This document shows positions 18,461 to 55,012 of a DNA stretch of 64,000 bases, in pieces (positions within the stretch are counted from its first letter, which is position 1; each line of letters opens with the position of its first letter). Source of the stretch: Gracilimonas sediminicola (lineage in GTDB: Bacteria > Bacteroidota > Rhodothermia > Balneolales > Balneolaceae); contig NZ_JANDBC010000001.1 in the NCBI RefSeq assembly GCF_024320785.1, positions 330,617 through 394,616 on the forward strand. Reading direction: 5' to 3'. The translations under genes were made by a program, and so were the position numbers. Under the pieces are notes generated by a model that did no database searches, was not told the origin of the DNA, and was given only the letters and a program-made list of their open reading frames with translations.

Positions 18461-18471
18461 GAAGTATAAAG

Positions 18472-18836
18472 TGGAGGTGCGGGGAGTCGAACCCCGGTCC
18501 GGGAAGGTAGACCTGTTAGCATCTACATGTGTAGGTACTGATTGGTATTTCGGGTGAAGCCGAGCCCAGTACCTAAGCGACTTCAACCTATTCTGCTAAA
18601 GTTTCACGCAAACGCGGCAGAAGGCACGCTTACGATATCCTGTCTTGTATGACGTCCGGGCTGGCAATGACAGGCACTTAACCAGCGGGACGGCTTAGCA
18701 GTTTATGCTGCTAAACGGTATGAGTAATTATTGTCAATTACTTTTGATCCATAATGATTGTTATTACGAGAATCATTGGACACTCTCGACACGCAACCAA
18801 CGGTGATACTCAACCCGTCGAATCCAGAACACCCCC
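18472..18836 (-). ncRNA. ssrA: Transfer-messenger RNA (tmRNA)
   Basis: Rescues stalled ribosomes by acting as tRNA-Ala and as mRNA for a degradation tag. The 5' end GGGGGTG pairs with CACCTCC at the 3' end (7 bp, one G-U). The 5' conserved TTCTGGATTCGACGGG and the T arm CGGGGTTCGACTCCCCG are intact. CCA is not fully encoded. The tag reading frame ends in CGT TTA GCA GCA TAA (18703-18717), giving a tag such as IDNNYSYRLAA. The resume codon is not certain: ATT at 18736-18738, preceded by AGTA, or the GTA before it. Length about 365 nt, normal for one-piece tmRNA. Confidence 0.95.
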
Positions 18837-19862: not shown

Positions 19863-19876
19863 CCCCGTCATTGCGA
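19863..19876. repeat. Left arm of interrupted palindromic element
   Basis: ACCCCGTCATTGCGA is the outer left arm of the element whose remainder begins at 21168 after the IS110 insertion. Joining 19876 to 21168 recreates GTCATTGCGAGGAGCC, the reverse complement (one mismatch) of GGCTCCTCGCGATGAC at 21293-21308. Confidence 0.8.
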
Positions 19877-19899
19877 ATACTATGACTAAATCAAGTGTA

Positions 19900-20931
19900 T
19901 TAGGCTGATTTTTTGTATTTCTTGATCATCTTTTGAATGTGCTTTGGATCATACTCTGCTTGATTATTCCACATGGCACAGTACAGACGAATCAGTTTAT
20001 TGATGATGTTGTTGATGGCGACCAGTTCGTGTTTACCCTCGGCGAGTTTCTGCTCGTAGTAGTCGTGGTAGTGGGGGTTGTGGTTGGCGACACTGCGGGC
20101 TGCTTGGTGCATCAATCGCCGCATCTCGGAGTTTCCGTACCCGGTGGATCGGTTCGGGCTTTTGACGGAGCTTCCAGAGCTTCGGCTATGAGGAGCAAAG
20201 CCGAATCGGGAAGAGATTTTTCGGGCATTCAATTGGTCTTGCTCAGCAAACAAGCTTAGCCAAAACCGTCCCGTTACCGGACCGATTCCGGGAGCTGTCC
20301 TCATGGTTTGGTAGCGCTTGGACAGCGCTGGGTCCTGACGAATCAACTCGTTCATCGTCTGCTCGAGTTGGTCGATATGCTGGGTGAGAAGTTGAATCTG
20401 TTGGTTCCACATCTCGGTTAGCTGGCTCATATCCGCATCATGAAAATCGGCTTCGGTGAGCTTACTTTTGAGGGCTGCCCGCTGATCCACCATCTTGCGT
20501 CGTTCGGCCTGAAGCCGTTTTATTTGCCCGACAGCCGGTATTGGGGCCTCCGTCAGGTGCAGCCGGTCACTGAAGCGATCACCATATTCGGCCAGTTGGC
20601 TGGCATCCCATTGATCGGTCTTGCGGTGATGTTCGAAGCTAACTTTGTCAAGAGCGGTGGTTTTAACAACCGCATGGGACCAGCCTTCGGTAGTGGTCCA
20701 CCGCAGCAGGTGCTCTCCGTAGCGGCCGGTGTGTTCACTCACCAGCATGGTTTGTGAAGGGTCAGCTTCCTGGTCTGTCAGCCACTCCCCGATGTGGGCA
20801 AAGCTTGCGGAAGTATTTTTTACTTCTTTGTGGAGCATCTATCCGGTTTTTCGGTCCAGCAAGCACAGGTCTAAGAGTAATTTTGAAATATCAATACCTA
20901 CTATAAAGCGCCATTTAATTGTAATTTCCAT
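19900..20931 (-). pseudogene. IS110-family transposase, split by an in-frame amber codon
   Basis: The DEDD-type transposase should start at ATG 20931 (MEITIKWRFIVGIDISK, whose Asp is the first catalytic acid). After residue 30 the frame meets TAG (20839-20841), directly followed by ATG. The remaining 312 codons are open. They contain the DEDD C-terminal part and the second domain with TAPGIGPVTGRFWLSL, and SSGSSVKSPNRSTGYGNS, which includes the expected catalytic Ser. The second part alone would lack the first catalytic Asp. So this is an inactivated copy, unless the amber is read through or is a sequencing error. Confidence 0.85.
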
Positions 20932-20966
20932 AGCAATTCCTCTATTTTATGGTCGGTTGATAAGCT

Positions 20967-21147
20967 GCCGAGTAGTTACCGTCCCGCCTCTTTTAAAAAG
21001 GTGCACTTTCCATACTATATGGGCTTAGATAACTACCTGCCATGACAGGCTTTGATTCGCAAAATGGGTTTTACCCAGAGGAGACAAGAGATTGCCTGTC
21101 ATGGTTCGGTAGCTTTTTATTTTGTTAGTAGCTAACCAACAAAATAT
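20967..21147 (-). ncRNA. Putative IS110 bridge RNA in the element's 5' non-coding end
   Basis: Reading the minus strand: a 5' stem-loop ATTTTGTT/AACAAAAT (21145-21119), then a hairpin with stem CATGACAGGC/GCCTGTCATG (21103-21041), then a hairpin with stem GTAGTTA/TAACTAC (21036-20972). The first loop has CTCCTC, the same as the left target plus core, and TTGCGA, complementary to the right target. The second loop has ATAGTAT, the same as the element's 3' end, and TAAAAGA, complementary to core plus its 5' end. This is the order and polarity known for IS621-type bridge RNAs. RNA ends are estimates. Confidence 0.75.
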
Positions 21148-21167
21148 TTCATCGGAAGTCTAAAAGA

Positions 21168-21311
21168 GGAGCCTGCACAGCCGAACGCCGGGCTGGGATG
21201 CATAACGACGCGGCAATCTCCCTGAACTGGCATCCCAAGTGGATTATGGAGATCGCGTCGTCGATATACGGAAAGCTCGTATCAACAACACCGGCTCCTC
21301 GCGATGACGGG
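21168..21311. repeat. Main part of the palindromic element targeted by IS110
   Basis: Contains the outer right arm GGCTCCTCGCGATGACGGG (21293-21311), inner arms GACGCGGCAATCTCC (21208-21222) and GGAGATCGCGTCGTC (21248-21262), and a central GGGATGC/GCATCCC pair (21195/21230). It thus forms a nested, cruciform-like structure. The left outer arm lies beyond the IS at 19863-19876. Confidence 0.75.
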
Positions 21312-54912: not shown

Positions 54913-55001
54913 AGATCAGCAAGTTTTAAATTGTGTAATAGTTGCGAACGAATATAGACTAATTAGCCTTGTTTTGATGATATTAAGCATTAAATTCTTA
55001 C

Positions 55002-55012
55002 CGTATAATACG
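55002..55012. promoter_or_regulatory. Small palindrome before the His-rich operon
   Basis: CGTAT-A-ATACG, an 11-base perfect palindrome ten bases before the TTG start of the next gene. It could be an operator (for example for a Fur/Zur-like metal regulator), but it is too short to name. Confidence 0.3.

Follow-up and report, generated by a model that had tools for sequence, protein, structure and literature searches.

The window analyzed here, a 64,000-nucleotide stretch of a Gracilimonas sediminicola contig (NZ_JANDBC010000001.1), contains a single IS110-type element, a minus-strand copy at 19875-21165. The element, its transposase gene and the two halves of its target are laid out as follows:

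19875..21165, minus: IS110-group insertion sequence, 1,291 bp including one core TC (19875-19876), with ends set by relatives elsewhere and by the reconstructed empty repeat
19900..20931, minus: transposase gene of 343 codons, with a TAG at 20839-20841 and an open part at 19900-20838 (312 aa)
21166..21171, minus: left target half CTCC plus core TC, as in 12 empty genomic copies of CTCCTCGCAATGAC
19874-19867, minus: right target half GCAATGAC, as in the same 12 empty copies

The transposase matches the Pfam families DEDD_Tnp_IS110 and Transposase_20, both above cut-off, and its sequence relatives in the PDB are IS621 and ISCro4. The left flank CTCCTC occupies 21171-21166 with the core TC at 21167-21166, and the element begins with TTTTAGAC at 21165. 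Its right end reads ATAGTAT (19883-19877), followed by the core TC (19876-19875) and then GCAATGAC. The left end extends 234 bp ahead of the transposase start, while the right end measures 25 bp with the core included. A tmRNA gene lies about 1 kb from the element at 18469-18836 on the minus strand (Rfam, 163.6 bits).

The long left end encodes a structured RNA with four guide words, arranged as follows:

20963..21144, minus: bridge RNA, a paired structure of about 182 nt, identified by its fold (z -5.9), covariation and covariance-model matches in distant relatives
21120..21144, minus: 5' stem-loop TTTTGTTGGTTAGCTACTAACAAAA, from fold and covariation
21106..21114, minus: 5' strand of the closing helix around both arms, pairing with 20963-20971 (covariation helix 3)
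21041..21103, minus: target arm, with stem 21103-21094 paired to 21050-21041 and apical hairpin 21077-21065 (covariation helices 4 and 5)
21078..21083, minus: left target guide CTCCTC, equal to left flank plus core
21057..21062, minus: right target guide TTGCGA, which is the reverse complement of TCGCAA (core followed by right flank)
20972..21036, minus: donor arm, with stem 21036-21030 paired to 20978-20972 (covariation helices 6 to 8)
21012..21018, minus: left donor guide ATAGTAT, equal to the element 3' end and identical in all close relatives
20989..20995, minus: right donor guide TAAAAGA, which is the reverse complement of TCTTTTA (core followed by the element 5' end) and identical in all close relatives

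The four guides stand in the order published for IS621. A first-pass annotation, made from the sequence alone, had already read these words as the guides of a bridge RNA with core TC; rechecked on the minus strand, its positions are correct to the letter, and the core holds for the window element. It had also judged a chance match of all four words to be improbable, which the counts bear out: when the RNA was shuffled 200,000 times by dinucleotides, no shuffle contained all four words and 16 contained three, and the product of the single-word frequencies is 2.8e-7 before the right order is demanded. The shuffle figure alone is optimistic because the words were picked after the sequence was seen. 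The assignment of RNAs to flanks across elements, described below, is independent of that choice and likewise speaks against chance.

The bridge-RNA strand folds at -65.4 kcal/mol, compared with -42.6 +/- 3.9 in 200 shuffles (z -5.9), and this fold shows the 5' hairpin and the pair of larger arms that had been described from the letters. MAFFT placed the 3' strand of the target stem wrongly in two rows, and base pairs were therefore counted on a covariance-model alignment. In that alignment of six RNAs, 93.4% of cells pair and 12 of 46 base pairs show compensatory changes on both sides, a number reached by none of 500 shuffles, although fitting this alignment to the structure biases its pair counts towards it. 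Sliding the partners by one to three columns lowers pairing to 29-49%. The covariance model, for which the close group was the training set, detects the RNA in distant elements outside that set as well (E values of 8e-12 to 3e-4). Rfam returned no family at gathering score in the bridge-RNA region, and a mir-192 match was dismissed as far below cut-off. Elsewhere in the window, the bridge-RNA model matches weakly at 54952-55008 on the minus strand (18.3 bits, E 0.008), an AT-rich segment (GC 0.25) where the match is probably due to chance.

To collect relatives, 92 genomes of the family were searched at the DNA level and 129 genomes of the order at the protein level. One genome of the same genus (G021) holds eight copies with 80% DNA identity to the window element and one common RNA. 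Copies in G063, G067 and G068 share about 70% DNA identity with it, the G446 copy shares 50% protein identity, and the elements of G022 and G028, a second element of G021 and those of G010, G014, G016 and G020 share 39-45% protein identity. Plasmid records contained no DNA similar to the window element, and searching DNA across the phylum with the G067 element found full-length copies only in genomes that had already yielded one.

The first-pass annotation would have been contradicted by relatives whose target loops stay the same or mismatch their flanks at other sites, or by a lack of conserved pairing; the pairing is conserved, with compensatory changes, and the loops change and match their own flanks. 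The left guide and left flank of G063 both read TTGGTC, and its right guide is the reverse complement of its right flank TCGAGAT. The corresponding left and right words are CCCCT and TCAAGGG in G067, TACCCCT and TCGAAT in G068, CTGCGCTC and TCAGGC in G446, and ACGTGAGTTC and TCGAGATA in G022. Right guides of the distant elements fit their own right flanks over six to eight bases. Donor guides in turn track the element ends, with ATAGTAT and TAAAAGA in the close group, and with ATAGCAT and right donor guides fitting the altered left ends TATTAG or TGTTAG in the distant group.

We scored this co-change by the longest word common to the whole RNA and a flank pair, a measure chosen because it avoids picking registers by eye, over all 40,320 assignments of eight guide types. 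The true pairing, with a score of 112 against a mean of 83.5 (sd 5.3), is unequalled by any other assignment; a register-fixed variant agrees. The permutation tests exclude decayed or incomplete copies (L009/L050, with the target loop deleted, L017, L021, L024 and L094) and one copy whose left end reads N (L048), as well as the later-found G044 elements. In G044 the right ends were seen before the loop: three of four read TCGAAGTGACG, and the loop AACTTCGA is the complement of TCGAAGT, while the left flanks fit the left guide in part only. Further misfits are one G021 copy with flank GCGCCTC against guide CTCCTC, the decayed copy L021, whose flanks fit its guides poorly, and the second G021 element (L067-L071), whose right guide fits fully and whose left guide fits its left flank poorly without a gap. 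The left guide of that element reads ACCGAGTGTGTC and its left flanks CCCGANNNNTC, with CCGA and the core common to both but displaced by a single base, as though a bulge broke the left pairing.

When joined, the flanks of the window element rebuild a repeat with two arms, about 150 bp in length and also present at other sites in the genome. The target word CTCCTCGCAATGAC has 12 exact empty copies there and none in reverse reading, and 38 target arms are found at one mismatch, ten of them in a tandem array (G000:C2:672357-673239). That array contains five copies of the target repeat with a period of about 182 bp, and the element is present in none of its five exact target arms. The second arm of the repeat that hosts the element is placed as follows:

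21295..21308, minus: partner arm of the interspersed repeat, CTCCTCGCGATGAC in opposite orientation

Partner arms mostly read CTCCTCGCGATGAC, which mismatches the right target guide, and the window element occupies the guide-matching arm. The eight G021 copies all do likewise, reading TCGCAATGAC at their right ends. The target is one arm of an interspersed repeat, so that many landing sites exist. Insertion into a dispersed extragenic palindrome is also known from IS elements in REP sequences (PMC1525189), although the repeat unit of the present host has two arms and a length of about 150 bp.

Both transposase domains, the long left end with its RNA, the short right end, the order of target loop then donor loop, the four core-containing guides and the target guides that follow the flanks across elements place the element in the IS110 group. 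The IS1111 group, which carries its RNA in a long right end and has subterminal inverted repeats of 7-17 bp, was rejected, as the right end here is 25 bp and the RNA lies upstream. The closest counterpart is IS621 (PMC11208160, PMC11208158), which likewise has an RNA with a 5' stem-loop and target and donor loops in a long left end, left guides like the top strand and complementary right guides with the core in all of them, a DEDD/Ser transposase and a dispersed palindromic repeat as target. The window element differs from it in having core TC instead of CT, another target repeat, an interrupted transposase and a host in the Balneolaceae. IS621 also builds a promoter at its circle junction (PMC11208160), and a putative equivalent is present here:

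19889..19894, minus: putative -35 of the right end, TTGATT, separated from TAGACT by 17 nt in the closed circle
21157..21162, minus: putative -10 TAGACT in the left end, at a spacing of 17 to the -35 across the circle junction

All ten element types carry a TTGA-type -35 and a TAGA-type -10 at a spacing of 17, with TTGACA in the branch that inserts into attC-like sites. By analogy with IS621, this junction promoter would be active in the present phylum as well.

We therefore read the locus as an IS110-group element in which the bridge RNA is intact and the transposase gene downstream of it mutated, and which when active would have worked as IS621 does; we put the probability of this reading at roughly 94%. 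The analysis itself establishes the matching sequences, a fold that is conserved, guides and flanks that change together, empty copies of the repeat and the in-frame stop; from the published system we infer transcription of the RNA, its binding by the transposase and its role in catalysis. While active, the element would have been excised as a circle, and its joined right and left ends would have formed the promoter driving the bridge RNA. The transposase would then have held the junction ATAGTAT-TC-TTTTA with the donor loop and the target CTCC-TC-GCAA with the target loop, with strand exchange at the core TC.

The first-pass annotation was silent on the in-frame stop, on the dispersed palindromic repeat as target and on the prior publication of natural retargeting. 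The TAG parts the GID motif, the equivalent of IS621 D11 and first Asp of the DEDD site, from the rest of the transposase. Aligned relatives have no stop at this position, and the same-genus G028 element, which is truncated further on, has Gln there. Mutation of D11 abolished recombination by IS621 (PMC11208158). Because the stop removes the first catalytic Asp and no other IS110 was found in this genome, where the window copy is single, the element is probably immobile, though its bridge RNA is intact. The TAG may also be a sequencing error or be read through. A bridge RNA that is only a relic, in an element that arrived dead through recombination between repeat copies or by way of another element's transposase, would suit the in-frame TAG and the solitary copy in a genome where no other IS110 was found, yet we regard it as very improbable, given that flanks, guides and core fit exactly, as direct insertion would leave them. 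The same-genus G021 moreover has eight copies with intact frames in the same target arm, and the stop therefore more simply arose after insertion.

Even less credible is an origin of the guide words by chance or common descent in a structured leader with another role, such as control of transposase translation: the words are short, at six or seven bases, the leader immediately precedes the transposase, and the ISPpu9 transposase is reported to be controlled by its leader and small RNAs (PMC8450116), but the shuffle and assignment tests oppose chance, the right guides of the distant elements fit six to eight bases of their own right flanks, and the G044 right flank, seen before its loop, fits as well.

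The bridge-RNA mechanism and its natural retargeting are already published (PMC11208160, PMC11187229). Since neither the mechanism nor natural reprogramming nor the use of repeats as targets is new, the locus is a well-supported further example of a known system, and the window copy itself, probably a dead IS in a genomic repeat, is ordinary biology. Its value is that a reading of raw sequence independently confirms the bridge-RNA logic outside the E. coli host of IS621. Among the ISEc11/ISXne4 and ISEc21 seekRNAs, close relatives similarly keep their scaffold and change their target words to fit new flanks (PMC11187229). ISEc11/ISXne4 are of the IS1111 type with the RNA downstream (PMC11187229), whereas the window lineage has its RNA upstream and at least eight targets within one lineage. 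Such a series of guides, reprogrammed in nature while the scaffold is kept, is useful for the rules of programmable recombinases, as are the core TC system and the branch with unequal cores.

That branch is a sister IS110 group (L052, L053, L054 and L055 in G014, G010, G020 and G016, respectively) that inserts into attC-like integron sites. Seven empty sites (L106-L112) in three genomes read CCCGCGCA-TT-AAGGGG, and in the four filled sites the left junction reads CCCGCGCA-TT and the right junction TC-AAG. The target core TT therefore differs from the donor core TC, with each junction retaining one of them. At the core positions the left guide reads TA and the right one GA, so that pairing with TT would need one mismatch and one G-U pair; in IS621, guide pairing to both core strands is strongly preferred (PMC11208160). 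We consider it likely that one IS110 lineage of this bacterial family has been retargeted in nature to at least eight different sites on a kept scaffold and donor logic, and, given TT/TC in the attC branch, that identical cores are unnecessary for natural insertion. IS1111-type elements that target attC have been described before (Post and Hall 2009, cited in PMC11187229). Compared with those elements, the sister group occupies attC-like sites as well, but has its RNA upstream, as in the IS110 type, and unequal target and donor cores. The literature searched contained no report of attC targeting by IS110-type elements, which is not proof of absence. In one array, the empty sites lie in repeats with CCTAAC...GTTAGG ends separated by cassette-sized stretches, an arrangement that looks like integron attC.

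The same-genus copy L009/L050 (G028:C10) has lost its whole target loop, apparently through a deletion between the CATGRCAGG words that flank the target stem; it retains an intact donor loop, and its transposase is truncated too.
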